A DNA stretch of 64,000 nucleotides from Sanghuangporus weigelae (Eukaryota > Basidiomycota > Agaricomycetes > Hymenochaetales > Hymenochaetaceae), in assembly GCA_033182465.1 (NCBI GenBank), contig CP137321.1, positions 2,604,001-2,668,000 of the forward strand, read 5' to 3'. A program made the position numbers and the translations under genes. Each line of letters opens with the position of its first letter. The stretch's first letter is position 1. Below are positions 8,271 to 47,798 of this stretch, one piece after another. The notes beneath the pieces are model-generated. The model was not told the origin of the DNA and did no database searches. It worked only from the letters and a program-made list of their open reading frames with translations.

Positions 8271-8499
8271 CATTCTGTGTATTTTTTACTTTATATTCGT
8301 TTCGAAATGTATAACAATCGCTGCGTTCCGTGAGATTCTAGCGGATGTCCGATAGATTACAGTAGTTGTGATAGCAAGAATATACAAGATCGTTCAGTCA
8401 GGCCAGAAAACTGAATCTACCGTAGCTTTGTGTATGTCATGTGTGAAGATACTACATGAAAATAAAATAGACAGACTGACTGAACAACTGAGTAGATTA

Positions 8500-9581
8500 C
8501 AGCCGTTTGCAAAAGTAATGAGAATCACGTGATTTCACCACTTTTCTCGCCATGAGAGCCTCAAAACACAGATAAAATCATATCTCACCCAAATCTCAAC
8601 GGTTTCACATCATCTAAGTTGCTAAATTCATCTTTTCGAAAGGGCTTTCGCTTAAAGAAAACTGTAGAGAAAATAGAGCGAAAAATGACCCTAAAATGGC
8701 GAAAATATCGGTTTTTGCCTCTTCCTTGCATGTGCAATTTTTTCTGTGATCCCTGCTGGTCCAGCACCTCCCCAAAGCTATCCAGAATGATAATATGATT
8801 ATAAAATGAATTTACAAACTGAGTTTGAGTTGAATTGTGTACCAGAATGTGCTGCTTTGAGGCATGCCTGAATCACTCAAAACTCATCATTTCCCCCTAG
8901 CCTCCCAGGCTCCAGGAAAACTTCTTACAGGCCAGATTCATGCATGTAAATTCATTTTGGATATAATAGACTAGGTTTATGTACTAGCTAAGGCCTCAGC
9001 ATCCACTTGTGAGCTGGGAAGATGCTGTCTAAAATGATGCATACAACCAGAATCACTTGTTCAGCCCAGCTCACCAGTGGATGCTGAGGCCTTAGCTAGT
9101 ACATAAACCTAGTCTATTATATCCAAAATGAATTTACATGCATGAATCTGGCCTGTAAGAAATTTTCCAGGAGCCTGGGAGGCTAGGGGGAAATGATGAG
9201 TTTTGAGTGATCCAGGCATGCCTTAAAGCAGCACATTCTGGTACAATTCAACTCAAACTCAGTTTGTAAATTCATTTTATAATCATATCATCATTCTGGA
9301 TAGCTTTGGGGAGGTGCTGGACCAGCAGGGATCACAGAAAAAAATGCACATATAAGGAAGAGGCAAAAAACGATATTTTCGCCATTTTGGGGTCCTTTTT
9401 TGCTCTATTTTCTCGAACGTTTTTCCTAAACGAAAGCCCTTTCTAAAAGATGAATTAAGCAACTTAGATGATGTGAAACCGTTGAGATTTGGGTGAGGTA
9501 TGATTTTATCTGTGTTTTGAGGCTCTCATGGCGAGAAAAGTGGTGAAATCACGTGATTGCCAACAATTTTGCAACTAGCTG
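8500..9581. mobile_element. Foldback MITE, copy 1 of tandem array
   Basis: A ~1.08 kb palindromic element: two ~500 bp inverted arms around a short centre near 9035, flanked by TA (8498-8499, 9582-9583). No ORF spans it. The right tip is CAACTAGCTG (reverse of CAGCTAGTTG). The left tip is instead CAGCCGTTTGCAAAAG, identical to the tips of the 14 kb element further right. The sub-terminal motif TCACGTGATT is present at both ends. TA duplications and CAG...CTG tips suggest mobilisation by a Tc1/mariner-type transposase. Confidence 0.85.
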
Positions 9582-9695
9582 TAAGTAAAATGATGAACTT
9601 TATTCTTTCTGCTTGAAATTAGCCTTTCTGGGACTGACCTAGTGTCAAATGAGTAAGCTGATGATGAAATATTTCATAAATCACATTGGAAATTA

Positions 9696-10778
9696 CAGCT
9701 AGTTGCAAAATTGTTGGCAATCACGTGATTTCACCACTTTTCTCGCCATGAGAGCCTCAAAACACAGATAAAATCATATCTCACCCAAATCTCAATGGTT
9801 TCACATCATCTAAGTTGCTAAATTCATCTTTTCGAAAGGGCTTTCGCTTAAAAAAAAACTATAGAGAAAACAGAGCAAAAAATGACCCCAAAATGGCGAA
9901 AGTATTGGTTTTTGCCTCTTCCTTGCATGTGCAATTTTTTCTGTGATCCCTGCTGGTCCAGCACCTCCCCAAAGCTATCCAGAATGATAAAATGATTATA
10001 AAATGAATTTACAGACTGAGTTTGAGTTGAATTGTGTACCAGAATATGCTGCTTTGAGGCATGCCTGAATCACTCAAAACTCATCATTTCCCCCTAGCTT
10101 CCCAGACTCCAGGAAAAATTCTTACAGGCCAGATTCATGCATGTAAATTCATTTTAGATATAATAGACTAGGTTTATGTGCTAGCTAGGTCCTCAGCATC
10201 CACTTGTGAGCTGGGAAGATGCTGTCTAAAATGATGCATACAACCAGAATCACTTGTTCAGCCCAGCTCACCAGTGGATGCTGAGGCCTTAGCTAGTACA
10301 TAAACCTAGTCTATTATATCCAAAATGAATTTACATGCATGAATCTGGCCTGTAAGAAATTTTCCAGGAGCCTGGGAGGCTAGGGGGAAATGATGAGTTT
10401 TGAGTGATCCAGGCATGCCTTAAAGCAGCACATTCTGGTACAATTCAACTCAAACTCAGTTTGTAAATTCATTTTATAATCATATCATCATTCTGGATAG
10501 CTTTGGGGAGGTGCTGGACCAGCAGGGATCACAGAAAAAAATGCACATATAAGGAAGAGGCAAAAAACGATATTTTCGCCATTTTGGGGTCCTTTTTTGC
10601 TCTATTTTCTCGAACGTTTTTCCTAAACGAAAGCCCTTTCTAAAAGATGAATTAAGCAACTTAGATGATGTGAAACCGTTGAGATTTGGGTGAGATATGA
10701 TTTTATCTGTGTTTTGAGGCTCTCATGGCGAGAAAAGTGGTGAAATCACGTGATTGCCAACAATTTTGCAACTAGCTG
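9696..10778. mobile_element. Foldback MITE, copy 2 of tandem array
   Basis: Near-identical to copies 1 and 3. Tips are CAGCTAGTTGCAAAATTG and its reverse complement, with flanking TA at 9694-9695 and 10779-10780. The arms pair along almost the whole length around a centre near 10,237. No coding capacity was seen. Confidence 0.88.
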
Positions 10779-10892
10779 TAAGTAAAATGATGAACTTTAT
10801 TCTTTCTGCTTGAAATTAGCCTTTCTGGGACTGACCTAGTGTCAAATGAGTAAGCTGATGATGAAATATTTCATAAATCACATTGGAAATTA

Positions 10893-11977
10893 CAGCTAGT
10901 TGCAAAATTGTTGGCAATCACGTGATTTCACCACTTTTCTCGCCATGAGAGCCTCAAAACACAGATAAAATCATATCTCACCCAAATCTCAATGGTTTCA
11001 CATCATCTAAGTTGCTAAATTCATCTTTTCGAAAGGGCTTTCGCTTAAAAAAAAACTATAGAGAAAACAGAGCAAAAAATGACCCCAAAATGGCGAAAGT
11101 ATTGGTTTTTGCCTCTTCCTTGCATGTGCAATTTTTTCTGTGATCCCTGCTGGTCCAGCACCTCCCCAAAGCTATCCAGAATGATAAAATGATTATAAAA
11201 TGAATTTACAGACTGAGTTTGAGTTGAATTGTGTACCAGAATATGCTGCTTTGAGGCATGCCTGAATCACTCAAAACTCATCATTTCCCCCTAGCTTCCC
11301 AGACTCCAGGAAAAATTCTTACAGGCCAGATTCATGCATGTAAATTCATTTTAGATATAATAGACTAGGTTTATGTGCTAGCTAGGTCCTCAGCATCCAC
11401 TTGTGAGCTGGGAAGATGCTGTCTAAAATGATGCATACAACCAGAATCACTTGTTCAGCCCAGCTCACCAGTGGATGCTGAGGCCTTAGCTAGTACACAA
11501 ACCTAGTCTATTATATCCAAAATGAATTTACATGCATGAATCTGGCCTGTAAGAATTTTTCCTGGAGCCTGGGAGGCTAGGGGGAAATGATGAGTTTTGA
11601 GTGATTCAGGCATGCCTCAAAGCAGCATATTCTGGTACACAATTCAACTCAAACTCAGTTTGTAAATTCATTTTATAATCATTTTATCATTCTGGATAGC
11701 TTTGGGGAGGTGCTGGACCAGCAGGGATCACAGAAAAAAATGCACATGCAAGGAAGAGGCAAAAAACGATATTTTCGCCATTTTGGGTTCATTTTTTGCT
11801 CTATTTTCTCGATTATTTTTTTGAAATGAAAGCCCATTCAAAAAGATGAATTTAGCAACTTAGATGATGTGAAACTGTTGAGATTTAGGTGAGATATGAT
11901 TTTATCTGTGTTTTGAGGCTCTTATGGTGAGAAAAGTGGTGAAATCACGTGATTGCCAACAATTTTGCAACTAGCTG
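10893..11977. mobile_element. Foldback MITE, copy 3 of tandem array
   Basis: Third copy, flanked by TA at 10891-10892 and 11978-11979. It is separated from copy 2 by the same ~110 bp spacer that separates copies 1 and 2. Tips and arms are as in copy 2. The right arm differs from copy 2 at scattered positions, so the copies have begun to diverge. Confidence 0.88.
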
Positions 11978-11979
11978 TA

Positions 11980-12286
11980 GCTATTTCCATGTAAGAACTT
12001 GGCAGTGATCAGAAGTATGATATAATAATGACTAATGTTGAGAAAAAATGCCCAAATATGGTGACTGATGGACAAATTTCACATTAAAATGCATAAATTG
12101 GCTCAAAATGTAATGCATTATGCAGTACAAAATTTTTGCATAATTTCCCTTCTCCCAAGTCAGGAGAAGCCCAAACCCAATGCATTATAAGATTTATGCA
12201 TTATGATTCAATGCACTATGACAATTTCAACTGTAGCAATACTAGAAGAGATTCACCAGAGGATACCATATCATCTACTGTAATAT
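11980..12286. other. AT-rich spacer between MITE array and the 14 kb element
   Basis: About 300 bp of A/T-rich sequence with several ATGCAT-like words (around 12,090-12,215). I see no gene, repeat boundary or RNA. Confidence 0.4.
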
Positions 12287-12288
12287 TA

Positions 12289-13660
12289 CAGCCGTTTGCA
12301 AAAGTAATGAGAAAAGCCTAAATCACGTGATTTTTTTGACACATGTCGTGCCCTTGAACAATAAAAATGAATTGAGTACTCTATTTCTCGGTCAATACTG
12401 CATGTAAAAATATGATATGGCTATGTAAAAAAAGTGCTCAAAAATGCGCTTCTAACGGTGTAAGAATGTATGAGAAATATAGTGTGTACATGACAGAACA
12501 AAACAGACAACCTTGTCAACCCATCCCTTACAACCATCTCTCAGGCCATTGAAAAATCACCACTCATGAAATACTCCATGTAAAAATATAATTCAGGTGG
12601 CATAATTCATGCAAGTACAGAAGGTATCTGTGTACAAGTTCTTGTGGCATATTGATAGGCCCTTCAATGGTAGAGTAAGGCAACAGCCATTCATGCCCAC
12701 TTGCAGAACCCCTCTCCTCAGCCTCCTCGCAGGGCACTAGCACTCATCGTTTCGATTACCAACAGGTCAGTACTTGCCCTTCACTGCCTATCCCATCCAG
12801 TCGAAGCTCTGAAGAGAAAATGCAGTAGCCTTTGGAGCCAGGTCCGTCAACATCTTCATATTCTTCTTTGCATCTCGAGCCAAAGCGGTCAAAGCAGGCT
12901 AAGGAGCCTCAACGACAGATCAGTTAGCTACAATTTGTTGTTATCACTCAGTACACAGCTCGCACGTACAGATCATATTAAGTACAAGAAGCAATTCACA
13001 ACTGAAGGCAAACTCTCGATCAAACAAGAGCAGGTGGAACTCAAATCATCGCTACTAAAAGAATACAGTCTGAAACTGCATATGACGGCCAAAATACACG
13101 GGAATACAGAGGTAGAATGACATATAGAAGAACAGAATACTTATTCAGATAGGGAGGGAACAAGAAGAGCATGACACAGCAATTCCTGCTGTACACGCGT
13201 TTCAAGACAAGGCAAATGGAGCCACTGCGTGGTGACCTACCGCAGCGTGCTCTTGGTATACTCAAACAGCCGCAAAAGGGATCAACGTGCCTGCGTAAGA
13301 AGTAAGAAGACTAAGTCAAAATAAATAAACACGAAATGAGATCCTTTCGAGTAACAACCGCCAAACTAGACAAAGGAGAGGTGAAGAGGGCATAATTCCA
13401 TCCATGGAGGGCAAGCAATTGTCCAGTCCGTAGTACTTTTGGCCTCCCACAGTGGGAGTGAGGCAAGACTGGATGGTCCCTCGCCCAGCTCACGTCGCTT
13501 TCGCCTTCAAGTCCGTCGTCTTCAGCTCCTGATCCGTCTGAGCAGGGTTAACTGACTCCATCCATTGTAACAGAATAAGGTAGTCCAGATTTGTCATATT
13601 CATTCTGTAACGTGTCTGCACTTCGATGAAATTATCGATTTCCTTCTCCGTGTTGGCGAG
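12289..13660 (+). repeat. Left long terminal inverted repeat of the 14 kb element
   Basis: The sequence is mirrored at the right end. The outer ~1.2 kb is nearly identical between arms: even a 139-codon open frame at 12701-13120 recurs mirrored at 25505-25924 with a few changes. The inner ~150 bp falls in the 3' ends of the arm genes and is more diverged. The inner limit is approximate. TCACGTGATT lies close to the tip, as in the nearby MITEs. Confidence 0.85.
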
Positions 13661-15133
13661 GCTCCATCAACTTCATCTTCGTTTGTTTCAAGAGTTTCGA
13701 CTTTCTCGGTCTTCTGCAAAGCTTTACTGGAATCGAAAACTTCCTGTGAGTCGACATCTCCTGTACAAGCCTTCTTGATCGTGGTCCACGTGGCTTCCAG
13801 CTGCTTGAAGGGTAGCTCGACCTCAAGCGCGCCCACTTTTATAAGATTGTATACACGTGAGGATCCAGATATTGCTAGATTCAGTAACTTCTCATCACCG
13901 AGCACTCGCAGGCACCGCTGAAGAACATTAAGCCGATGAGTGCAGCTTCGCTGCTTCTCGAGAGCCTTCTTGATTTCCTTCTCAAAGACTCCCGCATTTC
14001 CCTCTAGGTGGTTTATCAACGCCGAATTGATCGGGGGACGTTCGATTTGAGGACTGCTGTCAACCTTGATCCCAGAAGATTCAATGTTCGAAATGCCAAC
14101 AACGATATCTGATTGTCAAAATAGAGTGTTTCAGATTCAGAATTGCTGTGAAATGCTACCTGCCTTAAGTGAAGGGTCCATACTTTCTCTCTCTTGGTGC
14201 TTCAGTGGCGCAGGAGTCCCTCCAGATGCGCTGCTGGTATGGCCCGCCTGAGAGTGTTGCTGACTAGCATATACCGCTTCTTCCACTGTACCACCACGAG
14301 AAAGTACTCTAATAAGGTTGTGTTGCTCAGCAAGAGCAGCATTCAGAGATTCAATTTCCACGCCCGTTTGTTCTGTTTCCTTCTTAACCACGCTATATTC
14401 CCATATTATGAGCGGGGCAAAGAACTTCAAGATGCGACCAAAGAATTCCTCGATAGTTTCTGTACTGAAATGTCCAATTTTGTTACATTGGTGATCAGCT
14501 TCCGATCAAAAATCTCTGACAATTGCGGTGTTCGGAAGAGTAGCAAAATACGGACCATTCGGTGAATAACGCTCCTCTTCCAGAAGATAGTGGAAAACAG
14601 AGCGACGAGGACGAAACAGGTACGTCCCGTTCAGCCTCAATTGAACGTTGAAGTGGAGGCGGTAATGTTCCGTCAGCTTCAATAAAAACATGTGCCATAG
14701 ATTGACTGGCATCTCCCATTCCAATTCGCTCAGGAAACCTGTCACATTGAGGAACTTCAGAAGGACGAGCGTGAAACCACGTGCCACGTCAGATTGCGCC
14801 ATTGTATACCCACGTCAAACATCTAACAACTTCATGGCTGCATCATTCTGAAAAGAAAGAGAGACTATTAGGTAAGGTAGGAAAGGTGTGTCTAATTGTG
14901 AACGAGTCATTTACCTCTAAAGAAGAAGCCTCGAGCATCCTCACATGCTCCACAGTCTCGGAGAGCACCATCGCAAACTCAGAGATATCCTTTTTCACCA
15001 TCATGGAATGGTCTTTCAACTTCGCACATTGATCGTCCACAGCACTCACTACGCCATCACAATGCTTATCAAGACAAGTTACATGCTGAGAAAGCCGATG
15101 AACGACATCGCATAGCACATCTGTGAGAACCAT
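13490..15133 (-). pseudogene. Left arm gene: coiled-coil protein, decayed
   Basis: Reverse-strand exons 15133-14915, 14847-14160 and 14108 onward join through GT-AG introns of 67 and 51 nt. The frame carries TGA stops at 14817-14815 and 14508-14506 and a frameshift near 13,660, after which the frame runs to a TGA at 13490 inside the terminal repeat. Both TGA codons sit where Trp would fit, i.e. TGG to TGA. The product has an N-terminal helical region (VLTDVLCDVVHRL), a middle domain ending FFGRILKFFAPLIIW, and helical C-terminal parts. It shares this architecture with the right arm gene. I recognise no family, and the function is unknown. Confidence 0.65.
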
Positions 15134-15570
15134 TATTTAATCAGGAGGATAACCCTCAACCTCTTCCAGTTTCCTTTTAATCCTTGTATGCTGAACAGCC
15201 ATACCTTTAATAAGGTCTATAGAGCCCGATTTTAGGGGGGCAGGGCAAAACAAGACATGGAATGCACCTTCCCCCTTTGATGCGCCACAGGTTGGGTGGG
15301 TTGAGAGGCAGGAAACAAATGTCAGCAGGCAGATGCCGCGCCCACGTGTCATGATGGTGGGGCAGCTCTGAGACATAGTGTAAGTGTAGGACATTCTGAC
15401 TGAACAGTCCAAACTGTGTGGCAAAGGGAGGTGTGTGAGTGTGAGTGTTAGGAGGTGGAGCGAGGGAAGAGAGATATAGAGCGATGGGCATGCCTTATAC
15501 TTACTAAGCTGCGACACTGTCACAAGTTCTTTCTTTGTCTTTGTTTATTTCACCCACTGCCACTGCCAGC

Positions 15571-16737
15571 ATGACGTATGGGGTTCCTATCTCAGATGAC
15601 CTGCGTCGCGTTATCGTGCACATGTCCACAAACTGTGGACTAGATGTAAAAGGCATTGTTTATCTCACCGTGGTTCCTTGGGCTTCAGTGTATCGGGTCT
15701 TGAATACTTGGAAGCAAACTGGTGAAGAGTGTCCTACACCCCATTTGAAATCAGGGCGTCCAAGGGCATTAGACTTCGCTGATACCCAGGTACGACTGAA
15801 GAATCGTGATCTCGGAGATGTAACTAACAAGGAACAAGTTTCTTTTGAAAACAGTGACGTGTCACAATGATATCTATCTTGATGAACTCAGACAATCGCT
15901 CGAAGAAAGATGCGGTGTGAGAGTGTCTGATGCTACCATTTGGAGAACTCTTAACCGGGCAGGCTTTTGAATGAAGGAGGTAATTGTAGCTTATTCGAAA
16001 GGGCTGATAAAAAATCAACAATTTAACATAGATCACAAAGCATGCGCAAGAACGCAATGAGTCCCGTCGAGCAGAGTATTAGCTTCGCATCGGAGCAAAT
16101 TATTCTCCAGAGCAGTTGGTTTTCGTTGATGAAAGTGCGTGTGATCGAAGGACATATTTGCGTGATAGAGCATGGGCATTAGAGGGAGTTCGCGCATGCC
16201 GAAAGCAGGTATTCACGAGGGGAAAACGGTATACTTTCAGAGCTATCTGCACATCACGTCGTTTTCATGCTTCCAGGTATTCCATCCTCCCTGCTATATC
16301 TATGAGCGAAATTGTGGAATGCATGATTGTCGAAGGATCATTCAATATGGAGCTTTTTATGGTTTTCATTGAGGACCTTTTGGCCAAAATGAAGCTGTTT
16401 CCGGCACCAATGTCTGTCGTTGTTATGGACAATTGTACCATCCACAAAGCTCCCAAACTTCTCGAGCTTGTCAAAGGAAGGTGATAACTTTTTTCAAATA
16501 TGTTACTGAAAATTTGTTCACCACTTTCATAGAGGAATGAGGCTCAAATATTTGCCAGCGTATTCTCCCGACTTCAACCCGATCGAGCTAGCTTTCTCAC
16601 TGCTTAAACATAATTTACGTCGCAGTCCGCCGCCGGAGGGGGATAAGGTTCTTGTGTATGAATACCTATATCTTCAAACTTTTGGCACCTCTGCAGCGGA
16701 TTGTCGAAGTTTCTATCATCAATCAGGCTATCTCTGA
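15571..16737 (+). pseudogene. Tc1/mariner-type DD34E transposase, decayed
   Basis: Exons 15571-15789, 15839-15979, 16032-16480 and 16533-16737 are joined by GT-AG introns of 49-52 nt. The N-terminus is a helix-turn-helix (ISDDLRRVIV ... ASVYRVLNTWKQTG ... SGRPRALD). It is followed by DIYLDELRQSLEE and SDATIWRTLNRAGF, then the DDE core: VFVDESACDRR, VVVMDNCTIHKAP and YSPDFNPIELAFSLLK. There are 34 residues between the second Asp and the Glu. In-frame stops are TGA at 15968-15970 and TAG at 16080-16082. The family cuts and pastes at TA, matching the TA duplication of the surrounding element and of the MITEs. Whether it is the resident transposase or a separate insertion is not settled; I saw no inner terminal repeats. 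Confidence 0.85.
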
Positions 16738-16948
16738 TTTGGTCCTGACGTGGATCCCAAGGAACGAATACAGTTGAAGTAGTTTTATATATTTCATGCG
16801 TAGAAAGAGCTGTTGAAGCCCGAAATGGATTAAATACAGCGAGCAAAAGACAGAAGGAAAGAAACTGTGCACAGCGAACAGAAAGGGAGTACGTCGTGCG
16901 CATTAAACATCAAACAACTAAAGGAGAAAGCAATGCGACTGTGCCATT

Positions 16949-19900
16949 TCAATAGGTAGACAACTTTCCATCCCTCTTGACACAAGCAACATCCTCCACC
17001 GCATAATCATGAACGCGATTCACCAGTCCTATCGTCACATCTACCCCTTCTGCCTTTGCCAGAGCTTCGATCCTGTCTGTATTCATCCTTACGATATCAT
17101 CGATCCTTGTGCAACCATTATTTGAGAACACAGGTGCAAGCTTCCGGTATTCATGATTATCCCTGCCACGCTCCAAATCATCTTTGCATGCCTTGAGCCA
17201 ATCTCCGATAGCCGGGTAGTTCAGTGGTCCTTTGTGCGTAGTAGAAGTTAAAACTTCCTGTGCTACTCTGACGGGTGCCGCTGTAGCGCACTGGCTCCTC
17301 CTGTGCCACTAAACTCATACTATGGCTCCCTCTTACTGCAGATACCATATCCCAGCACTGCCGACACCTGAGAGTGTGAGGGCATACTCCTACTGCACTC
17401 GAGACACCATTTGAGCATATTTCCACTGATTCCAGTACACGTACTGTACTGCGGCGCCCTCCTATGACCCAGATCGATCCGCCGATGGCTCCCCGACACT
17501 CAGACAGGTCCGCCGACAGCTCCTACCCAGCACCAGGCACTATAGGACACATCCCCCAGTGACTACATGCCGCCGATCTTATGATTTACCATACGTACAG
17601 CCGTGCGGCGACTCTGGATGCCTCCGAGTCGGCCCCCCTTGGCGCCGATCAATGCGGCGGACACTCAGACATCCTCAGGTACCCTCGCCGACGCCTCCTA
17701 CAGCTTACCAAGCAGTCCCCCATTGTCTAGGGAGCTATATATTGTCATATGTGCTTACATGCCTCATTACGATGTATCTGCCACCAGTCCGGCAGTCCCC
17801 CACAGCACTGCCGCTCCGGCCACTCATATTAGTCACTAGGGATCGCCCACACTCTGTATTGAGTGCCGCCGATGCATCGGACACCTCAGGGACATCGGCT
17901 GATGCGCCCTTTGTCTCATATACGTGATATCAGCCTCCAATCATCGGTTCCGATGTTTCCCGACTTCCCCCCGACGCGGCGGCCCCCATTAGACCATGTA
18001 TGGAAGGTAGGCATGTGGTACATCGGCGTGCCAAGCCACCGACTTGCACCGCCAAGCCCAACTCCGCCGGCACCCGTGTTATTGCAGATACTCAATATTT
18101 CATGTGATTGGATGCCCCCCTCACGTTGCCGCTCTCAGATTTCACCTGGGCGCTCCGGCAGCGGCCCTTGGCGACCCAGATGACTCAGGAGATGTTGTCA
18201 GACAGTAGGATGTGTCGGCGACAGCAGTAGAGTATATATAGAGCTTATACTAGCTTGTAGATGACAGGATTCCAAGCCTAGCGAGGATTCCAAGCCTAGC
18301 AAGGATTCCAAGCCTAGCAAGGATTCCAAGAGCATGTACCAGACCGAGCGCCAGAGTTCGAGATATCCCTCACTCTGAGTCTCCCCTCATGTACTGAGCC
18401 TCCCCCTTGACTATATACTATCCTTGACATCTCCTCTTGTTTGACTCCACATTCTACTTGCCTTCGCCGCCTCCGGTACGCCTCTGCCGCTCTGACGTTC
18501 AGTGAGTGAGTAGGGCTTGGGATTTAACCCTGAGCCTCCTCCCCACACTTCATACCTGTCCGGCGCCCCTCTATTTGACATCGGCGACCCTTCGGCAACC
18601 CAGGCTTCTTATCAGACTCCCCTTCGGCATCCTTTCCAGGCTTTCACTCCAGTTTATCCCATCTATTGATCTTATACGGTCTTTTCCTTTCATCTATCGC
18701 GTTTACGCTACTTCGGCAGATTTGTGCAGCCTCCCCCTCAATCCGGCACCCCTCTATTCGACATCGGCGGCCACCTGGTGACCCAGCCTTCCTATCATAC
18801 ACCCCTGCAGCGCCCTTTCCAGCCTTTCACTCCAGCTTAGTCCATATATTCATCTTATACGGTCCTTTCTCTCCATCTATTGTGTTTACGCTATGTCGGC
18901 AGCCCCCTGTGATCCCCCCTCTCAAGCAGCGGTCCTGTTATCCTATTCCCTTTATCCAGCGGCATCCCTAGACCCATCCATTACGTCTCCGACGGTTCCT
19001 GGCACCTGCCGGGTAGTAGGTCTTTGAGAGTCTGATAGCGTCGGCATCCCATTTTTGGAGGTCCCTTCATACATTCAGCACCCTTAGTAGGACGGACATC
19101 TGTAGCACCTTCAGATACAACACCGCCGACCGACACCGCATGCGAGTCTACCTGTATCTTGTAGACTCCACCATTAGTAGGAGGTGCCCCCTGATTCATT
19201 CTTCCTGGCCTCTTGTAGTCAAGTAATTTTGCTGACATCGACTCTGGGACTTTACTTGCAACTACATGCAACTCCTGCCGTACCTCATGATGCCCAGTTA
19301 TCAGATCAGTAAGCGAAGAGAGTCAAACACGAAACTTACGAGTTTTTGCGTGTGTTCCAAAATGAGATCGGGGGTATAAACATCGCAAGTACCATTGTAT
19401 TTCTCGTAACACACGCGGTTGTGCACTGGACAAAACATGGCAGCCTGGATACTCTTCATAGCCTGAGTGATCTTTTCATCGACAGAGTCCCTAGCAGAAT
19501 ATGTAGGGTCAGTCTGTTTCAGTGGCCTACCCCTCGGCGCATCGGCTGCATGGACAGTCGTCTTTGTGGCACCCTATAGCAAATTTACTGAGCAAATGTC
19601 GTCATTTTCTAGGAAAGTAATTACCTGAAGAGTGTCCAACATGTTGTGAAAAACTATTTCGCATGTAATCTCCTGGTCGCGATTGCGACGTTTGCTCCGT
19701 TGATCCTTTACATACCTTCTATATGCACACCAGAACTCCGTAAGTTCATCCGGGTTGGAAAGATATGTAAGGCTCTTCTTCATCCCTATCTTTGAGCTCC
19801 AGGGGGCTTCATACCCGATCTCAACAAGATGATTTGGTTGTTTCATTGCTTGGGCAGCCTTGTCTAAGACGTCGACATGCTTGTCCAAAGATGATATGGT

Positions 19901-20946
19901 AACGATTCATTCTGCCAGTCCGTCGTGGACCTTGACTTTTATCTCTTCAATCTCTGGTCGTTTTAGGGTGCGACGTGTGTTCTTGCCTCTACTCAAGTTT
20001 GATGAGACTAGTGATAATTTATCATCTTCATCACAATTAGTATGGATTTCATTCAGCAACAAAAGCATGGTATTTATTACCGTCGTCTTCAATTTCCTCA
20101 AGATCGGAATCAGACAAAGGGATTGTAGAGTTTGCTATTCCATCTACAAGGATCTGTACAAGTACATCGTCCGAAAACTCCTCATCAAAAGTACTGGCAT
20201 CAGCAGGCCCTCCGCCGGGGGACGATAAGAAAGTTTTTTTTGGATGAGTATTGATCAGTAACGATGAACAAATAAATCACGTACATCAGAGCCTGGATAC
20301 CTCCGGAGTTGGATTATGTGGGTCCAATGGTAGAGGTGGTTGTGGAAAATGATTACGTTTGCGAGGCGGTACAATGGACTTCAGAAGAATTAAGACATAA
20401 GCAAATTTATGAGATCGGGAATATACCTTATTGTCTGTTTCTCTTTCGGAATCCATAGTGACGACAGCATCTTTCAGCTCTGGGTCAAAATACCCCATTC
20501 TACGACATTCTTGTTGCTTCAGAAGTGGTCAATAGCAGATATAAAAGTGGGAAACAAGGCCATCATTACCTGACCATCCCTGTCAGTTCCAGTCCTGTCT
20601 TTACAGTGAATTCTCACGGCTTGAACAGCATGCTGCAACAAATATGTCAAAACCAGCGCAAGGTGAAAGAAAAGAAGGAGCATACTTTGGCTTTGTCAAC
20701 GCAGGAATCAACATTTGAGCCCTGCTGTTCTGGTGCGACTTTGCGAGGGCGCCCACGACCATGCTTGACCATAGGGACGTCTTGGGCAGCTGCATCGAGA
20801 ACCTTCTGAGACGGTTTTGGCTGGCGTCTGCTTCTTACAATTGCTGCCGCAGATAGATTCGAAGACAGCTCGGTAGACATGGTGGGTGAGGGCAAGGGCA
20901 AAGGAAAAGAGAAACCAAGAGAAACTGTGACGTTACTGTCTGACAC
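16949..20946 (-). CDS. AT-hook protein with SAM-like C-terminus, split by a 1.85 kb insertion
   Basis: Reverse-strand exons begin at an ATG at 20946 (or 20881, MSTELSS) with ends at 20696, 20632-20570, 20516-20427 and 20378-20301, then further exons down to a stop at 16949. Exon 1 holds an AT-hook, KHGRGRPRKVAP, expected to bind the minor groove of AT-rich DNA. Acidic and Pro-rich stretches follow. The last ~80 residues (YPAIGDWLKACKDDLERG ... NNGCTRIDDIVRM ... VNRVHDYAVEDVACVK) look like a SAM-type helical domain. Repeat A (17282-19135) interrupts it: removing it with one CCGC copy gives a continuous VDSHA-APVRVAQEV frame. The exons between 20,300 and 19,900 are uncertain. A DNA-binding or regulatory role is inference. 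Confidence 0.6.
17282..19135 (+). mobile_element. 1.8 kb TG...CA repeat, copy A (solo-LTR-like)
   Basis: Starts TGTAGCGCACTGGCTCC and ends GACCGACA, flanked by a perfect 4-bp duplication CCGC (17278-17281, 19136-19139). It is nearly identical to copies B and C. No ORF of a known family is present. TG...CA ends plus a 4-bp duplication suggest a long solo LTR or a non-autonomous LTR element. It sits inside the last part of the AT-hook gene, so it is younger than the 14 kb element. Confidence 0.8.
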
Positions 20947-21837
20947 GTGTCCTTTCTGTTTGTCTCTTCTCTTCTTCTCTTACATACTTACGAACCCTCC
21001 ACATCACTGGGATGAGAACCCCATCACTTTTATTACCATGTCAGACAAGGTTCGAGTCAGCCGTTATTTTTCATCTTACCACCATCCTGACCTAACCTGG
21101 TCCATCAATCTCCTATGATCTCTCTCAACCTCTCCACCCATGGACACAGACACTACAGACACTACAGGACAACAGGATAAAGCTTTAGATCGTACGTGAC
21201 CTTTGGGATGCTGCATGCTACCCGTTTGGCATTACTAATCAGAGTTATAGTGGCGCTCAAGGATGTCTTGAAGAAGAGAGATGACCTGGTATCACGCTTG
21301 TCCTCGTCGAAAGGGAAAGTTGAAGATGGTTCTGCTGCTGTTATCGACAAGGCGGTGGATGCGATCGTCAAAATCTGTGATCATGTCCGATTGTTGTCTA
21401 GCAAACTTGGAATAGAAGAGAAGGAGATTAAAAAAACATGAGAACGAACTCAAGGATGTTATCACAACGGTTAAGAGCGATATCGGAGAACAAGCTGAGG
21501 TGCTGGAGCAACTCGTACAAGTAACGAGACTGTTGGAATCTAAGATACTCGAGGTGAGCATGCCGCATAGCATTCAAGCGCATTTTGTCTAATGTTGTCT
21601 TGTTTCTAGTACAAGGGAAGCCACGAGGCTATCGTTGTCCATCGACACCTTGATGATATTCGTGCTGCCGTTGCACAAGGATTCATCCTTGCTATGAGTG
21701 ATTATTTCATCAGTGATGATCTTGTCAACCGTTATGACCCACAAAAGTGTTCGGTGATATGGTGGAAGTTTACCGATCAGGTTGTCTGGGCGTGGGAGTC
21801 CTGTTACCAGTTCCAACGGCTCTTCGACAGCAATAAG

Positions 21838-21998
21838 GATGGTGGCAATGAGGATGGTGGCATTGAGTACATTGAGGATGGTGGCAATGAGTACGCTGAG
21901 GATGGTGGCAGTGGGTACATTGGCGATCGTGGCAATGAGTACGCTGAGGGTGGTGGCAATGAGCACGTTGACGATCGTGGCAACGAGTTCGTTGACAA
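21838..21998 (+). repeat. In-frame Gly/Asn/Glu-rich minisatellite
   Basis: Imperfect 30-bp-type units (GGTGGCAATGAGTACGCTGAG and variants) repeat five to six times inside the right arm gene. They encode units such as GGNEYAEDGG and DRGNEYAEGG. The left arm gene lacks them, so they expanded after the two genes diverged or were lost from the left copy. Confidence 0.8.
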
Positions 21999-22586
21999 AG
22001 AGCATCATGACCAGAGATTTCGAGCAATCCAGGACAAGAGCATTTTCTCGATTTTAATGAAGGATCTACCTTACAAAGCTCTCTTTGATGCCGGTCATTG
22101 TGTATTCACTTGCGACGGTAAAAATCGTGCTGTGCTGGATTACGAGCAGATTGAAGAAGGGAGTGCAACTCTGGCGAGACAGCTAAGGTTCTTCGCGCCA
22201 ATCTTTATATGGAAATTCATGGAGACGAAGTGTGACATATTGATGTGGAGCCAGCAGGTGCAATACTTTAAGGATCGAGACAGTTCGCTCCAAAGGATGC
22301 TCGAACTCATGGAAGCAGGAAACATTGTGGGAGTGTTAAAGTTCATCGGTGAACAATCCCCACCCAAGGGGCCTGGCAATGAAGTTTCCAATAATGATGG
22401 CACTGGAGACGAACTTGCTTTTGGAACAGCGCAAGAGTTACGACGGAAACCTGAGTGGGGCGCAATACTGGAGGCTTTGCCCCGTTTTTCCCCGCCGGGA
22501 CTGGGAAAGAAGGCACAACTAAAGCGAAAGCCGACCAGCAATGGTAACGCATACAGAGGCTCGTGACCCCGTTTCAAAGCTGACGT

Positions 22587-24371
22587 TGTAGCGCACTGGC
22601 TCCTCCTGTGCCAGTACACTCATACTATGGCTCCCCCTATACTGCAGATACCATATCCCAGCACCGCTGACACCTCAGAGTGTGAGGGCATACTCCTACT
22701 GCACTCGAGACACCATTTGAGCATATTTCCACTGATTCCAGTACACGTACTGTACTGCGGCGCCCTCCTATGACCCAGATCGATCCGCCGATGGCTCCCC
22801 GACACTCAGACAGGTCCGCCGACAGCTCCTACCCAGCACCAGGCACTATAGGACACATCCCCCAGTGACTACATGCCGCCGATCTTATGATTTATCATAC
22901 GTACAGCCTTGCGGCGACTCTGGACGCCTCAGAGTCGGCCCCCCATGGCGCCGATCGATGCGGCGGACACTCAGACATCCTCAGGTACCTTCGCCGATGC
23001 CTCCTACAGCTTATCAAGCAGTCCCCCATTGTCTAGGGAGCTATATATTGTCATATGTGCTTACATGCCTCATTACGACATATCTGCCACCAGTCCGGCA
23101 GTCCCCCACAGCACTGCCGCTCCGGCCACTCATATTAGTCACTAGGGATCGCCCACACTCTGTATTGAGTGCCGCCGATGCATCGGACACCTCAGGGACA
23201 TCGGCTGATGCGCCCTTTGTCTCATATACGCGATATCAGCCTCCAATCATCGGTTCCGATGTTTCCCGACTTCCCCCTGACGCGGCGGCCCCCATTAGAC
23301 CATGTATGGAAGGTAGGCATGTGGTACATCGGCGTGCCAAGCCACCGACTCGCGCCGCCAAGCCCAACCCCGCCGGCGCCCGTGTTATTGCAGATACTCA
23401 ATATTTCATGTGATTGGATGCCCCCTTCACGTTGCCACTCTCAGATTTCACCTGGGCGCTCCGGCAGCGGCCCTTGGCGACCCAGATGACTCAGGAGATG
23501 TTGTCAGACAGTAGGATGTGTCGGCGACAGCAGTAGAGTATATATAGAGCTTATACTAGCTTGTAGACAACAGGATTAAAAAGCCTAGCAAAGATTCCAA
23601 GCCTAGCAAGGATTCCAAGAGCATGTACCAGACCGAGCGCCAGAGTTCGAGATATCCCTCACTCTGAGTCTCCCCTCATGTACTGAGCCTCCCCCTTGAC
23701 TATATACTATCCTTGACATCTCCTCTTGTTTGACTCCACATTCTACTTGCCTTCGCCGCCTCCGGTACGCCTCTGCCGCTCTGACGTTCAGTGATCCGGC
23801 GCCCCTCTATTCGACGTCGGCGACCCTTCGGCGACCCAGGCTTCTCATCAGACTCCCCTTCGGCATCCTTTCCAGCCTTTCACTCCAGTTTATCCCATAT
23901 ATTGATCTTATACGGTCTTTTCCTTTCATCTATCGCGTTTACGCTACTGCGGCGGATTCCTGCGGCCTCCCCCTCAGTCCGGCACCCCTCTATTCAACGT
24001 CGGCGGCCATCTGACGACCCAGGCATCCTATCAGACGACCCAGCGGCGCCTTCTCCAGCCACTCACTCCATTTTATCCTTTATATTCATCTTATACACTT
24101 TATACCTTCCTGTGGCCGAGTTTATACCACGTCGGCAGCCCCCTGTGATCCCCCCTCTCAAGCGGCGGTCCTGTTATCCTATTCCCTTTATCCAGCGGCA
24201 TCCCTAGACCCATCCATTACATCTCCGACGGTTCCTGGCACCTGCCGGGTAGTAGGTCTTTGAGAGTCTGATAGCGTCGGCATCCCATTTTTGGAGGTCC
24301 CTTCATACATTCAGCACCCTTAGTAGGACGGACATCTGTAGCACCTTCAGATACGACACCGCCGACCGACA
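22587..24371 (+). mobile_element. 1.8 kb TG...CA repeat, copy B (solo-LTR-like)
   Basis: Starts TGTAGCGCACTGGC and ends GACCGACA, flanked by a perfect ACGT duplication (22583-22586, 24372-24375). It is in the same orientation as copy A and nearly identical, with a shorter segment near 23,800 where copies A and C carry a GTGAGTGAGTAGGG stretch. It interrupts the right arm gene; removal plus one ACGT joins GCTGACGT to GTCAACC and restores an open frame after a predicted intron. Confidence 0.82.
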
Positions 24372-24944
24372 ACGTGTCAACCTCAATCCATAGTTATGCT
24401 GCTGAAGGGCTCGAGAAGGTCCACTCGACCTATCCGGATGAGGGCCAACTCGCCCAAATTGCTCAGGACCCTCCTGAGAGGACCTCACATCCCCAGGCAC
24501 TTCAAAGTACCTTGGTGACGACTGCCTGGCAGCCTACCAAAGAAGGGACTGCCCAACAGCAGAGGGAGAACATTTCGCACATGCGAGAGGCTGAAGGTTA
24601 ACTTGCTGGAGCCAAGAGACAATTCGACATGCTCCGAAAGTGTCTTCATATCCTCCTTTCTGACAATATACTCCGTCTTGCAGTAACTGGCCTATCGGTA
24701 TTGAGAAACGCGCTGAACTATCTAGCACACTCCAGGCACACATACGACAAAGATTATGAGGAGTCCATATGAGATGTCAAACAGTTGCTTGAGAGGGTTC
24801 AAAAAGATATTGCCGATAAAGGTTATATGGATCTGTTGGCTGCATTTGATGAGACGCAGCAAGATGAAAAAGAGATTGCACATGGCAAGAAACTTGAAGA
24901 GGCACATCATGTTCTTATGGAGAGTGATTACTTCGCCAAGGACA

Positions 24945-26335
24945 ACGTGTCAACGGAGAAGGAAATTGATATTTTCATTGAAGCGCAGCTACGTTCCGGA
25001 ATAGATGCAACAAATCCGGACTATCTTATTCTGTTACAATGGATGGAGTCAGCTAACCCTGCTCAGACAGATCAGGAGCCAAAGACGACGGACTCGAAGG
25101 CGAAGGCGACGGACTCGAAGGCGAAGGCAACGTGAGCTGGGCGAGGGACCATCCAGCCTTGCCTCACTCCCACTGTGGGAGGCCAAAAGTACTACGGACC
25201 GGACAATCGCTTGCCCTCCACGGACGGAATTATGCCCTCTTCACCTCTCCTTTGTCTAGTTTGGCGGTTGTTACTCGAAAGGATCTCATTTTGTGTTTAT
25301 TTATTTTGACTCGGTCTTCTTACTTCTTACACAGGCACGTTGATCCCTTTTGCGGCTGTTTGAGTATACCAAGAGCACGCTGCGGTAGGTCACTATACAA
25401 TGGCTCCATTTGCCTTGTCTTGTAACGCGTGTACAGCAGGAATTGCTGTGTCATGCTCTTCTTGTTCCCTCCCTATCTGAATAAGTATTCTGTTCTTCTA
25501 TATGTCATTCTACCTCTGTATTCCCGTGTATTTTGGCCGTCATATGCAGTTTCAGACCGTATTCTTTTAGTAGTGATGATTCGAGTTCCACCTGCTCTTG
25601 TTTGATCGAGAGTTTGCCTTCAGTTGTGAATTGCTTCTTGTACTTAATATGATCTGTACGTGCGAGCTGTGTACTGAGTGATAACAACAAATTGTAGCTA
25701 ACTGATCTGTCATTGAGGCTCCTTAGCCTGCTTTGACCGCTTTGGCTCAAGATGCAAAGAAGAATATGAAGATGTTGACGGACCTGGCTCCAAAGGCTGC
25801 TGCATTTTCTCTTCAGAGCTTCGACTGGATGGGATAGGCAGTGAAGGGCAAGTACTGACCTGTTGGTAATCGAAACGATGAGTGCTAGTGCCCTGCGAGG
25901 AGGCTGAGGAGAGGGGTTCTGCAAGTGGGCATGAATGGCTGTTGCCTTACTCTACCATTGAAGGGCCTATCAATATGCCACAAGAACTTGTACACAGATA
26001 CCTTCTGCACTTGCATGAATTATGCCACCTGAATTATATTTTTACATGGAGTATTTCATGAGTGGTGATTTTTCAATGGCCTGAGGGATGGTTGTGAGGG
26101 ATGGGTTGACAAGGTTGTCTGTTTTGTTCTGTCATGTACACACTATATTTCTCATACATTCTTACACCGTTAGAAGCGCATTTTTGAGCACTTTTTTTAC
26201 ATAGCCATATCATATTTTTACATGCAGTATTGACCGAGAAATAGAGCACTCAATTCATTTTTGTTGTTCAAGGGCACGACATGTGTCAAAAAATCACGTG
26301 ATTTAGGCTTTTCTCATTACTTTTGCAAACGGCTG
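24945..26335 (-). repeat. Right long terminal inverted repeat of the 14 kb element
   Basis: Inverted copy of 12289-13660. The outer part is almost identical to the left arm. A 21-bp unit at the end of the arm gene (GACTCGAAGGCGAAGGCGAC type) is duplicated here and single on the left. The tip is CTTTTGCAAACGGCTG, followed by TA. Confidence 0.85.
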
Positions 26336-26337
26336 TA

Positions 26338-26564
26338 ACGGCAGACTACACGGACGCGTGATAATCGTGTCAATACGCAGTGAATTTGCTGAAATTTCGC
26401 AGCATGACTCATGTGTATTCTGTCCACCTATGATAAAAATTTCAAGTTGCAAATTGGAGGTTTGAGTGAGTAAATGTAGGGTGTTCAAAGGAAGGGTACT
26501 GTTTAAAGGACCAGTAAATGCCTGTTAGAACGTCGATCATCCTGCTTCTTCTCCGCTACTTACC
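26338..26564 (+). promoter_or_regulatory. Short FUR1 upstream region, bounded by the 14 kb element
   Basis: Only about 230 bp lie between the right end of the 14 kb element and the FUR1 start. If the insertion is recent, upstream control sequence of FUR1 beyond this point was displaced by 14 kb. No specific promoter motif was identified. Confidence 0.4.
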
Positions 26565-34361: not shown

Positions 34362-34892
34362 ACCATGGGCTTTCATATTCGAGTCGCACGACGGCAGACT
34401 TTTGTCATGCATACTTCTCCATCAGCAGAAGGTCCCCAGTCTTGTATTAGCTCACAAAACATCTTACAATCAACTACAGTATTTATGATTTACCAGCAAC
34501 TCGTATTTTCGGCTTCGCCGAAAACCCTGCTGGCTATAAATCCTAGTCTTCGTTACTGGTTATTCTGTCTATCCAACTTGATATAAATCCAACACATCAG
34601 TTGTACACTTGAAGTCAGGTGCACTGATTTGTGCATGTACAGAAATAAGAAAATAAAAAGAACTCCATTGAGCTTATCTGGTCTGTTCATATGTAGCAGG
34701 AACTTTCACAGCCACAGCTTTACTCAAATTTACAGCTCATAGCAGGCAAACTGTTATTTAGACCCGGACTAAATCCATAACTAGATGACAAATTAAATTT
34801 GAAATGTAGTAATGCATTTAGTCACATAATATATTTGATATTTGTTCTTTGACTAAATGATAAACTATATTTGAAATAACAAAAAGGATTTA
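34362..34892. other. Intergenic, AT-rich, no gene seen
   Basis: About 530 bp downstream of PRE1, becoming strongly AT-rich after 34,700. It contains imperfect repeats of TAAATGA/ACTAAAT words. No ORF, RNA gene or element boundary could be supported apart from the MITE that follows. Confidence 0.4.
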
Positions 34893-35973
34893 CAGCTAGT
34901 TGCAAAATTGTTGGCAATCACGTGATTTCACCACTTTTCTCGCCATGAGAGCTCAAAACACAGATAAAATCATATCTCACCCAAATCTCAACGGTTTCAC
35001 ATCATCTAAGTTGCTTAATTCATCTTTTCGAAAGGGCTTTCGCTGTAGAAAAACGATCAAGAAAATAGAGCAAAAAGTGACCCCAAAATGGTGAAAATCT
35101 CATTTTTTGCCTCTTCCTTGCATGTGCATTTTTTCTGTGATCCCTGCGGTCCAGCACCTCCCCAAAGCTATCCAGAATGATAATATGATTATAAAATGAA
35201 TTTACAGACTGAGTTTGAGTTGAATTATGTAACAGAATGTGCTGCTTTTAGGCATGCCTGAATCACTCAAAACTCATCATTTCCCCCTAGCCTCCCAGGC
35301 TCTAGGAAAAATTCTTACAGGCCAGATTCATGCATGTAAATTCATTTTAGGTGTAATAGACTAGGCTTGTGCACTAGCTAGGGCCTCAGCATCCACTGGT
35401 GAGCTGGGCTGAACAAGTATTTCTAGTTGTATGCACTATTCTAGACAGCATCTCCCCAGCTCATCAGTGGATGCTGAGGCCCTAGCTAGTGCACAAGCCT
35501 AGTCTATTACACCTAAAATGAATTTACATGCATGAATCTGGCCTGTAAGAATTTTTCCTAGAGCCTGGGAGGCTAGGGGGAAATGATGAGTTTTGAGTGA
35601 TTCAGGCATGCCTAAAAGCAGCACATTCTGGTACATAATTCAACTCAAACTCAGTCTGTAAATTCATTTTATAATCATATTATCATTCTGGATAGCTTTG
35701 GGGAGGTGCTGGACCAGCAGGGATCACAGAAAAAAATGCACATGCAAGGAAGAGGCAAAAAATGATATTTTTGCCATTTTGAGGTCCTTTTTTGCTCTAT
35801 TTTCTTGATCGTTTTTCTTAAACAAAAGCCCTTTTGAAAAGATGAATTTAGCAACTTAAATGATGTGAAACTGTTGAGATTTGAGTGAGATATGATTTTA
35901 TCTGTGTTTTGATGCTCTCGTGGCGAGAAAAGTGATGAAATCACGTAATTGCCAACAATTTTGCAACTAGCTG
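34893..35973. mobile_element. Foldback MITE, copy 4
   Basis: Same family as the array at 8.5-12 kb. Tips CAGCTAGTTGCAAAATTG and its inverse, TA at 34891-34892 and 35974-35975, palindromic arms around a centre near 35,433. The two arms of this copy pair closely with each other (for example GCACTAGCTAGGGCCTCAGC and its inverse). Confidence 0.85.
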
Positions 35974-35975
35974 TA

Positions 35976-37321
35976 AGGATACTTTCAGATACGAGATAAG
36001 AGTAAAAGCAGATTAGGATTTCCAAGAGATGTGATAGTACAAAGCACATAGTGACTAGAGCCGTGTGTTAAGAGGATCAAAAGATAAGGAAATAAGGGCC
36101 TAATCCTACAGCTATTTATGCTCCCAGATATTCTATTTTCCGTCCTATTTCTTACTCATCCTGTCTCCACTTTACTCCACTTTTCTCCACCTTTCTCCAC
36201 TATAACATCTGTTCCTTTGTCATCCTGCTACACTTTGCTCCACTTTGCTCCAATTTTTGTAAGGTTGTCTCCACTATGACGGAATTCTGTGAAGTTGCTG
36301 ACTGAGACAATAGAGGTGGTGTTCCAATATGAAATGCTCCACTGTCAGTACTCCATAACAATGTCTTTGCTGTCATTGAATAGCATTCTTGCTCTTAGAG
36401 CGATGTAGGCTGCTCAGTATGTGACTCTTCGGAATTCATCTTGAGGTCCAGTCAGTGTAAGCATAACTCACACGTCGGTATTAAGGTGTCGGGTCAGAGT
36501 AGAGTATGGTCCCAGGTATATCATGAACTGCGTAAGTTCTGCTGGGTTCTGGTGACTAGCTATGCTTTGCCTTCATATCATATGTCTCGAATATAATGCC
36601 ATATCCTTTGTTGTATAAGGAGTTGCAATTACCCAGTCTCCAGGTTCGTATCTCTTGGTAAGTAGAGGTTCGCCTGTATCGTAGATGCTGGACATGATGT
36701 GTGCAACTCAGGTCTATACCATCCAATTATTCTCTAAGTTATTGGGTTTGCAGTTCAAGGGGTTTGAGTTGTGATTGTGAGTTCCTCTCGTTTCTTGGGT
36801 ACTACTAGATTTGGTGAATTGGAATGTATTGTATCTTGAAGGTGTCGCTCGGTTTCGATGTGACAGTCACGTGTGCCAACTGTTGCCGTACATACTATGT
36901 AGTATACTTCATAAAGGATCATGTAAACTCGTGTACAGACTTAACAGTGCTGAAATGCCAGTAAGGTCTCCATAAACCTTATTAGCCTTTAGCCTTTTAG
37001 CGTTTAGGCTTTAGTAGTTGTGCTTCTGGACTTCTAAGAAGTTTGGTCGCTTCTTTGATCGAGGTCGCTCTAGTTATTTGGTCGGCAGTGTTAGAGTGGT
37101 AGTCCATAATAATAGGTGGTTGGCGGTGTTAGCTGTTAGCAGGATTACATATTCGCTTCGGTGCTTCTAGCGCCCGGGTGGCAACAGGTTACTGTTGCCT
37201 AGGCCGCTCGGTCACTTGAGCCTGTGATAGCTAGCTTGGTTACTGGTTGCATTTGGAAAGCCAATCGTGTAAATCTGCTAATCACATTGATCCTGATGCG
37301 AGTTTTTAAGTGGATCCTTTC
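35976..37321. other. Intergenic, no gene seen
   Basis: About 1.3 kb without a supported gene. It includes CTCCACTTT-type pyrimidine repeats at ~36,160-36,260 and runs of TTAGCCTTTAGC words near 36,980-37,015. It may be decayed transposon sequence, but no family is recognisable. Confidence 0.35.
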
Positions 37322-43970: not shown

Positions 43971-45183
43971 CTCCCCCCTGATCTGACACTTCTTCCTTCA
44001 ACATAATCCCAGCATCCTACATATCTCCTGCACCTTCACTCTGCTTAGTGCTTTGTCATGATGTCAGCTGGCATGGTCTGAGTAGGCAAGTAATGCACTT
44101 TGATATGACCAGCCTCAACAACATCTCTCAACCAGTAGAAGCGCAGATCCAGGTGCTTCATGCATCCATGATGCTCAGGATTGTTTGCCACAGAGAGAGT
44201 AGACTGGTTGTCCATGTACAGAGAGGAAGGTGCATCAAACTTGTAGCCAAACTCTGTGAAGAGATTTCTTAGCCACATGATCTCTTGTCCTGCACTGACA
44301 GCAGCAATGTATTCTGCCTCGGTGGTGACAGAGTGACAAAGGGCTGCAACTTGCTAGCCCAGCTGATAGCACCAGTTCCCATCTTGACAACCATCCCACT
44401 TGTGGACCATCTGTTGTCCCTATTTCCTCCATGGTCAGCATCACAGAAGGGGACTTAGAATCAGGTGCATAACTCAGTCTGAAATCCTTTGTACCCTGCA
44501 GATAGCGACATAGATGCTTTGCTGCCTTCCAATGAGCTGGACCAGGATTGGAACTGAAGTGTCCCAAGACACCAACTGCATAGGCAATGTCTGGCCTAGT
44601 AGCTATAGCTAAGTACATAGTGCACCAACTAGTTGCTTGTAAGGCACTTGCTTCATATACTCAGTCTCTGCAGGGGTTTTAGGAGCCATGTCCTTACTGA
44701 GCTTGTGCTCAGGGAGAGGAGTAGTAACAGTGTCACAGTTGCTCATGCTAAAGCGCTCTAGCACATCAATAATGTACTGTCTCTGTGACAGACTGACAGA
44801 GTGCTTAATCTCTCTCAATGTGGACTCCTAGCAGGAATGAGGTTGGGCCTAACTCATGCTGTTTGAAGTGCTTGGCCAGCTCATCTCTGACAGACTCATA
44901 CTGCTGTTTAGACTTTGCAGCAATGGTCATGTCATCAACATAGACTGGAATGATGATGCGCACTTCATCTCTGCTGTACACCCAGATGCTGTAATCACAG
45001 CGCACTAGATTGAAGCCCATGCTCTTCATTACTGAATCAAGCTTCTTGTGCCATTGATGGCCAGCCTGCTTAAGGCCATAGATAGATTTGATCAGCTTGA
45101 GAACAAATCCAGGGCCAAAGTAGTCCCCAATCCTTCAGGCTGGTTTATGTAGACATCATACTCCATCTCACCATTGAGGAAAG

Positions 45184-45392
45184 TATTAAGAGTTGAAAAC
45201 AGGTGACCGGCCAGACTAGGGATTGAACCTAGGATCTCCTGAGTATATACCAGATGCTTTCACCATTAAGCTATCTAGCCAGGTTAATCACTTAGGTTGG
45301 CATTACCAGCCTATGAGTTCAGTGTCCAAATTGCAACTTAGGCAGGGAATAACTCATAGTCTGAGTAAGCTGAGGATTATATAATCCTAACA
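45184..45392 (-). mobile_element. Small LTR-like insertion carrying a tRNA-like sequence
   Basis: A 209-bp block absent from the inner copia copy, flanked by a perfect 5-bp duplication GAAAG (45179-45183, 45393-45397). On the minus strand it begins TGTTAGGATTATATAATCC, like a copia LTR, and ends near CTCTTAATA. A 72-nt tRNA-like unit lies near its 3' end. It may be a TRIM/solo LTR with a captured tRNA or a SINE-like retroposon. Confidence 0.7.
45209..45280 (-). tRNA. tRNA-like sequence (anticodon position UAU), probably not a host tRNA
   Basis: Read on the minus strand it folds as a cloverleaf of exactly 72 nt. The acceptor stem is GGCTAGA with TCTGGCC (7 pairs, one G-U). D stem GCTT/AAGC, anticodon stem TCTGG/TCAGG with two G-U, T stem CTAGG/CCTAG. 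The A-box TAGCTTAATGG and B-box GGTTCAATCCC are good. Loop position 33 is A rather than the near-invariant U, and the unit lies inside a mobile element. So it is most likely a tRNA-derived promoter or relic. Confidence 0.65.
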
Positions 45393-47519: not shown

Positions 47520-47771
47520 TGTTAGATCACACAAGTCCAGCAATGGACCACTGAGTCCAGTGGTGAGTACACTTGATGTATATTAACAGTCTAACTACAT
47601 ACCTGAGTCCAGTGGTGAGTACACTTGATGTAGGGTACTCACCAATGGACTGTGCCGCTTTTACAGAAGATTACATAAGCATCACATGATCAAGAAAGCG
47701 GACATAACAAACAATATAAACAGAATAAGAAACAACAAAATACTAACAGTGTCAGAATCACACTTCTAACA
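47520..47771 (-). repeat. 3' LTR of the inner copia element
   Basis: 252 bp, TGTTAG...CTAACA on the plus strand, next to the polypurine tract CTCCCCCC (complement GGGGGGAG). It holds a repeated GTCCAGTGGTGAGTACACTT motif. Confidence 0.9.
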
Positions 47772-47798
47772 CTCCCCCCTGATCTGACACTTCTTCCT

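Follow-up and report, generated by a model that had tools for sequence, protein, structure and literature searches.

A 64,000-nucleotide stretch of the genome of the fungus Sanghuangporus weigelae (hereafter the window; C4:2604001-2668000 in a genome of 33,870,148 bases in 13 contigs) harbors what is very probably a multi-gene Tc1/mariner DNA transposon that has long terminal inverted repeats (TIRs) and moves as one unit, and sequence comparison points to a real, apparently recently mobile family of such large multi-gene elements. Self-comparison of the window revealed that the two arms of the element, each of about 1.37 kb, are 95.2% identical across 1387 columns and that their outermost 51 nt are 100% complementary; the 1.37-kb inverted arm pair is far beyond chance. 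The ends of the window copy read TTA-CAG...CTG-TAA (Table 1), in agreement with the coordinates, inverted tips, and mirrored arms described in an earlier sequence-only reading of this DNA. That reading had also given the element a length of 14 kb, and the tip-to-tip span in the window is indeed 14.05 kb, but this size is inflated because two nested long terminal repeat (LTR)-like insertions lie inside, and without them the element proper measures about 10.4 kb. Both insertions are about 1.8 kb long and are direct repeats of each other, and their TG...CA ends and 4-bp flanking duplications are as expected for solo LTRs; thus, these two internal repeats were rejected as genes of the element. With its stops and its two LTR-like insertions, the window copy is decayed.

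Table 1. Features of the element in the window (window positions)
Feature	Position	Strand	Remarks
Left terminal inverted repeat	12286..13651	+	Includes TTA of the TTAA target; CAG starts at 12289
Left arm gene L	13490..15140	-	Several exons; approximate limits by comparison with copy c7a
Tc1-type DDE_3 transposase	15508..16740	+	Four exons; DD34E after splicing; approximate limits
AT-hook/SAM-like gene	16949..20979	-	Split in the window by a nested LTR-like insertion; approximate limits
Nested solo-LTR-like insertion	17282..19135		TG...CA; CCGC at 17278-17281 and 19136-19139; foreign to the element
Right arm gene R	21038..25135	+	Split in the window by a nested LTR-like insertion; approximate limits
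Nested solo-LTR-like insertion	22587..24371		TG...CA; ACGT at 22583-22586 and 24372-24375; foreign to the element
Right terminal inverted repeat	24953..26338	-	Includes TAA of the target; CTG ends at 26335

A dispersed family that inserts at TTAA

The family is dispersed across the genome, and the window arm matched at least 51 genome stretches, a lower bound since scoring covered 40 of 58 candidates. Sixteen tip-to-tip copies of 8.1 to 49.0 kb (median, 14.1 kb) were paired by hand from coordinates, 10 of them being known from coordinates alone, and five further copies are partial. Among the 16 tip-to-tip copies, the match lists assigned by hand to this family, which hold high-identity matches and, for L, weaker ones of 39 to 66%, place the transposase exon in 14, the SAM match in 13, the C-terminus of L in 13, and at least part of R in all 16. 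Genes standing without the tips were also looked for in this genome, and the 11 gene matches outside the tip-to-tip copies all fell within four of the five partial copies.

Six copies were read in sequence (the window copy, c7a, c11, c6a, c1a, and c2), and the whole 10.4-kb core is kept in all six, at 95.2 to 98.4% identity. Copies also carry other insertions of about 1.3 to 1.5 kb, and in c2 (17.2 kb) two LTR-like copies in opposite orientations bracket an inverted interior, a pair that presumably caused the inversion. TTACAG was present in 27/27 intact tips at the 30 arm loci examined, and four further tips agree, giving 31/31 in total; at L015, L016, and L029 the tip is broken near position 33, in the first two of these beside another repeat.

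The joined flanks of eight copies were searched against the genome for paralogous empty sites. For c2, an empty site at C6:1361783 matched at 97% over 385 nt in the search, and its alignment ran for about 885 nt, uninterrupted through an intact TTAA. For c1a, the empty site at C4:2187720 likewise has an intact TTAA, and its match begins 34 nt to the left of the junction (nine places span this junction in the search listing, one of which was aligned). Since the empty sites read TTAA and the filled ones TTA-CAG...CTG-TAA, the TA is duplicated. The element thus inserts at TTAA with duplication of TA, the duplication that the sequence-only reading had seen in the window, and it is not a piggyBac element, in which the full TTAA would be duplicated. 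Movement of a sub-segment alone was looked for in this genome as well, and the c2 empty site fits a move of the whole unit from tip to tip.

Genes, sister families, and decay

Open frames in c7a, the copy from which exon limits were read from sequence alone, suggest four genes, namely, L (-), the transposase (+), the AT-hook/SAM gene (-), and R (+). The coexistence of a DD34E transposase with an AT-hook/SAM gene and two arm genes, first noticed in the window, holds for a family in the genome. In the transposase, DDE_3 scored above the Pfam cut-off in two exons (E values of 5.6e-15 and 8e-9), and 34 residues, counted by hand, separate the second D from the E once a predicted GT..AG intron is removed; the window copy has one TAG within the catalytic exon. 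Its N-terminus matched HTH_29, HTH_Tnp_Tc3_2, HTH_SB, and others, all below the Pfam cut-offs, and a PDB sequence search with the spliced transposase matched no transposase. In the structure model of the SAM exon, block means of the predicted local distance difference test score (pLDDT) were 69-90 over residues 81-160, and the top PDB structure matches were mostly SAM domains of Eph receptors (probability, 0.80-0.99), with template modeling scores by target of 0.33-0.80 among the top seven.

The two arm genes show homology to one another (28% identity, E value of 2.6e-22), and the inner ends of the two TIRs (window 13490-13651 and 24953-25135) encode their C-termini. In c7a, a 1.5-kb insertion splits the first R exon, and the structure of an R exon predicted without an alignment had a mean pLDDT of 35. 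A 21-nt tandem repeat (25082-25132) adjoins the arm-gene C-termini, and arm alignments often break there. Open frames of about 148 amino acids also lie within the TIRs, two per copy in 6/6 copies, with a 39.6% match in the sister family F2 and no Pfam match; this frame was rejected as a gene because, with 3 stops and a ratio of nonsynonymous to synonymous differences (pN/pS) of 0.69, it did not clearly outperform other frames.

F2 (C6:896-909 kb) carries L, the transposase, the AT-hook/SAM gene, and R in the order and orientation found in the family of the window (F1). Amino acid identity between the two families, by segment, was 48-51% for L, 76-82% for the transposase, 48-82% for AT-hook/SAM, and 26-53% (mostly about 35%) for R, and the ratio of nonsynonymous to synonymous substitution rates (dN/dS) between F1 (c7a) and F2 was 0.30 (transposase), 0.26 (SAM gene), 0.53 (L), and 0.37 (R). 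The F2 tip starts TTACAGCTATTTGCAAAAGTAATGG; the left tip on C6 is truncated, and a second F2 copy (C11:898034-913164) has both ends by coordinates. Three more groups, F3 to F5, were recognized, F3 and F4 as search coordinates only; for F5 (L079) and F2, a single copy each was read, short of its outer end. In L079 (C10:100500-109500), each TIR is at least 2.48 kb and the two are 99% identical; because both TIRs match transposase exons (b to d), this copy appears to have two transposase genes, and a SAM match lies just inside one arm. A further F5 exon near the SAM match is homologous to an exon of the F1 SAM gene (25% identity, E value of 2.9e-5). Other convergent transposase pairs in the genome listing may resemble L079.

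With other frames as controls, segments of the transposase and SAM gene had pN/pS values of 0.19-0.38 in frame versus 0.70-1.65 in other frames, with the exception of one reverse frame for each, which shares third positions (0.28-0.48). In a comparison of six F1 copies, 875 of the 987 differences from the majority are C-to-T or G-to-A. By context, changes of the C-to-T type affected 10.1% of CpG, 1.3% of CpA, 1.1% of CpC, and 0.3% of CpT, so that CpG holds 696 of the 908 such changes in this count; four copies have 19 to 23 remaining differences each, and the window copy and c6a have 46 and 48. As the copies differ mostly by C-to-T, chiefly at CpG, this pattern suggests that the family spread recently and that methylated CpG then underwent deamination.

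Elsewhere in the window, UPRTase and protein O-mannosyltransferase domains occur in pieces of genes neighboring the element, and repeats related to the nested insertions lie at 39-43, 58-60, and 61-63 kb. The observed/expected ratio of CpG is about 1.0 in the interval 1-8 kb and 1.1 in the interval 27-34 kb but falls to 0.29 in the strongly CpG-depleted region 44000-57000. A near-palindromic repeat of 1.09 kb forms a mixed direct and inverted array at 8496-11992 and 34890-35977. Related copies adjoin L015 and L016; their tip, TACAGCTAGTTGCAAAA, is like that of the element itself, and the L016/L029 pair resembles a filled versus an empty TA site. The 1.09-kb repeat is possibly a non-autonomous foldback relative.

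Weighing the alternatives

It is very unlikely that a small ordinary Tc1 merely happens to sit within a larger repeat or segmental duplication, the long arms having no part in movement. Such an arrangement would accord with the usual Tc1 dimensions, on average about 1300 bp with one open reading frame (ORF) (PMC7325037; here and below, published work is cited from excerpts), but a nested small Tc1 was rejected, since no inverted-repeat pair above chance flanks the transposase alone. Moreover, the transposase occupies the same place in 6/6 copies, the c2 and c1a empty sites lack the entire tip-to-tip unit, and F2 shares the layout.

The sequence-only reading had called the additional genes cargo. 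Capture of host genes by a Tc1 element that carries them as passengers would fit the presence of several genes beyond the transposase, the weak constraint on the arm genes, and the different arrangement of SAM and transposase matches in an F4-like group. Against this stands the genomic distribution of the SAM exon: each of its 39 matches has a related transposase match within 10 kb, and 38 have one within 5 kb, compared with a random expectation of about 2% of places within 5 kb, for which guessed lengths of two contigs were used. The SAM segments are also constrained, and no host-enzyme Pfam domain scored above cut-off in the scanned ORFs. Because SAM matches keep to the vicinity of transposases and the gene order is preserved in the diverged F2, the AT-hook/SAM and arm genes look like core components, and capture is improbable.

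That the element is a virus-like Polinton/Maverick or belongs to another giant class (Starship, Helitron, or KDZ) is extremely unlikely. Polintons are of comparable size and have long TIRs, but they generate a 6-bp duplication, whereas TA is duplicated here. Among the Pfam matches of the scanned ORFs there was no polymerase, capsid, tyrosine recombinase, or helicase, in keeping with the sequence-only reading, which had recognized neither of the last two; matches to virus-named families were weak and all below cut-off, and in close-match scans three element proteins had no relatives in viral contigs. The element thus differs from a Starship in having no tyrosine recombinase match, from a Helitron (Rep/helicase, no TIRs) in its 1.37-kb TIRs and absence of a helicase match, and from a Polinton in its duplication and in the absence of viral hallmark matches above cut-off. 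In Zisupton, the duplication is 8 bp (PMC12730594).

Several observations weigh against a multi-gene Tc1/mariner transposon moving as one unit. All evidence comes from the sequence of one genome, in which clean empty sites were obtained for two of the eight copies tested and no paralogous empty site was found for the window copy. The c11 copy lacks 198 nt that its paralogue L050 (C11:43500-44400) has between two CATTAA sites, and the element occupies the place of this missing interval. Paralogues of c7a and c7b match the left flank only, up to TTAA, and then diverge, which could be due to ectopic recombination between copies or to rearrangement of the target; the search listed no match across the junction for c4w, c6a, or c9. 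With regard to the proteins, no PDB match of the SAM exon reached an E value of 0.001, the SAM gene matched no Pfam SAM model, and the AT hook scored below the Pfam cut-off. The SAM association has gaps, as 14 of 66 transposase places (matches merged by hand) have no SAM match within 15 kb. Finally, the arm genes are weakly constrained, with pN/pS values of 0.63-0.80 that overlap those of control frames; since their frames contain 0-2 stops versus 8-18 in control frames, L and R look coding yet fast evolving.

Relation to known elements and implications

Tc1 elements have the end motif CAG...CTG and share with the present element the DDE_3 catalytic domain, DD34E spacing, and TA duplication. 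The TTAA target sets the element apart from an ordinary Tc1, and so does its content, about 10.4 kb with four genes versus typically about 1.3 kb with one ORF, as do its TIRs of 1.37 kb, compared with several hundred bp in Minos, a Tc1 element (PMC7325037). Multi-gene Tc1/mariner elements are described in ciliates. Tec of Euplotes has a Tc1/mariner transposase and three ORFs, and its TIRs measure about 700 bp (PMC7325037); it is thus like the present element in its very long TIRs and several ORFs and unlike it in having a site-specific recombinase, none of which was found here. Sardine of Paramecium is about 6.7 kb long with 425-bp TIRs and up to four ORFs, one of them for a DD35E transposase; Sardine and Thon have palindromic TIRs and a tyrosine recombinase, no tyrosine recombinase was found in the scanned ORFs of our element, and a SAM/AT-hook gene is not mentioned for them in the excerpted text (PMC3464196). 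TBE of Oxytricha, also a multi-gene Tc1/mariner element, with three ORFs, one for a zinc-finger protein, differs in its short TIRs (about 80 bp) and its other accessory genes (PMC7325037). By analogy, Tec and Sardine appear to be the best parallels. The undescribed class suggested by the sequence-only reading is therefore too strong a term for an element that is Tc1/mariner by its transposase and TA duplication and has such counterparts (PMC7325037 and PMC3464196).

Among fungi, TET-bearing DNA transposons have an extra gene beside the transposase but belong to other superfamilies, and the main text of that 2025 paper nowhere uses the terms mariner, Tc1, or SAM domain (PMC12730594). A review of giant eukaryotic transposons likewise has no mention of mariner in its main text (PMC6431247), and the Mariner family mentioned for Marasmius oreades measures 3,972 bp (PMC9674265). 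No description of a multi-gene fungal Tc1/mariner was found among the titles and abstract openings listed in searches of open-licence papers.

From what is known of the Tc1/mariner family, the DD34E transposase would cut the element at its CAG...CTG ends and paste it elsewhere. The AT-hook/SAM protein may regularly take part in transposition, binding and oligomerizing on the element DNA or on the transposase as its partner, and the two fast-evolving arm proteins might conceivably be directed at the host, with CpG methylation as one example. We tentatively consider a broader possibility, that F1, F2, and groups F3 to F5 form a separate fungal transposon lineage whose Tc1-type transposase requires an AT-hook/SAM protein as its dedicated partner, that at least one of these families has the transposase inside TIRs of more than 2 kb, and that the arm proteins oppose host CpG methylation.

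Tc1/mariner is the textbook minimal transposon, with one gene and short ends. A fungal family several times larger, which moves as one unit and in which a second gene is kept across diverged relatives, suggests that the superfamily evolved accessory machinery outside ciliates too, and with this family one can test what length of DNA a Tc1 transposase is able to move and whether it needs the SAM/AT-hook protein.

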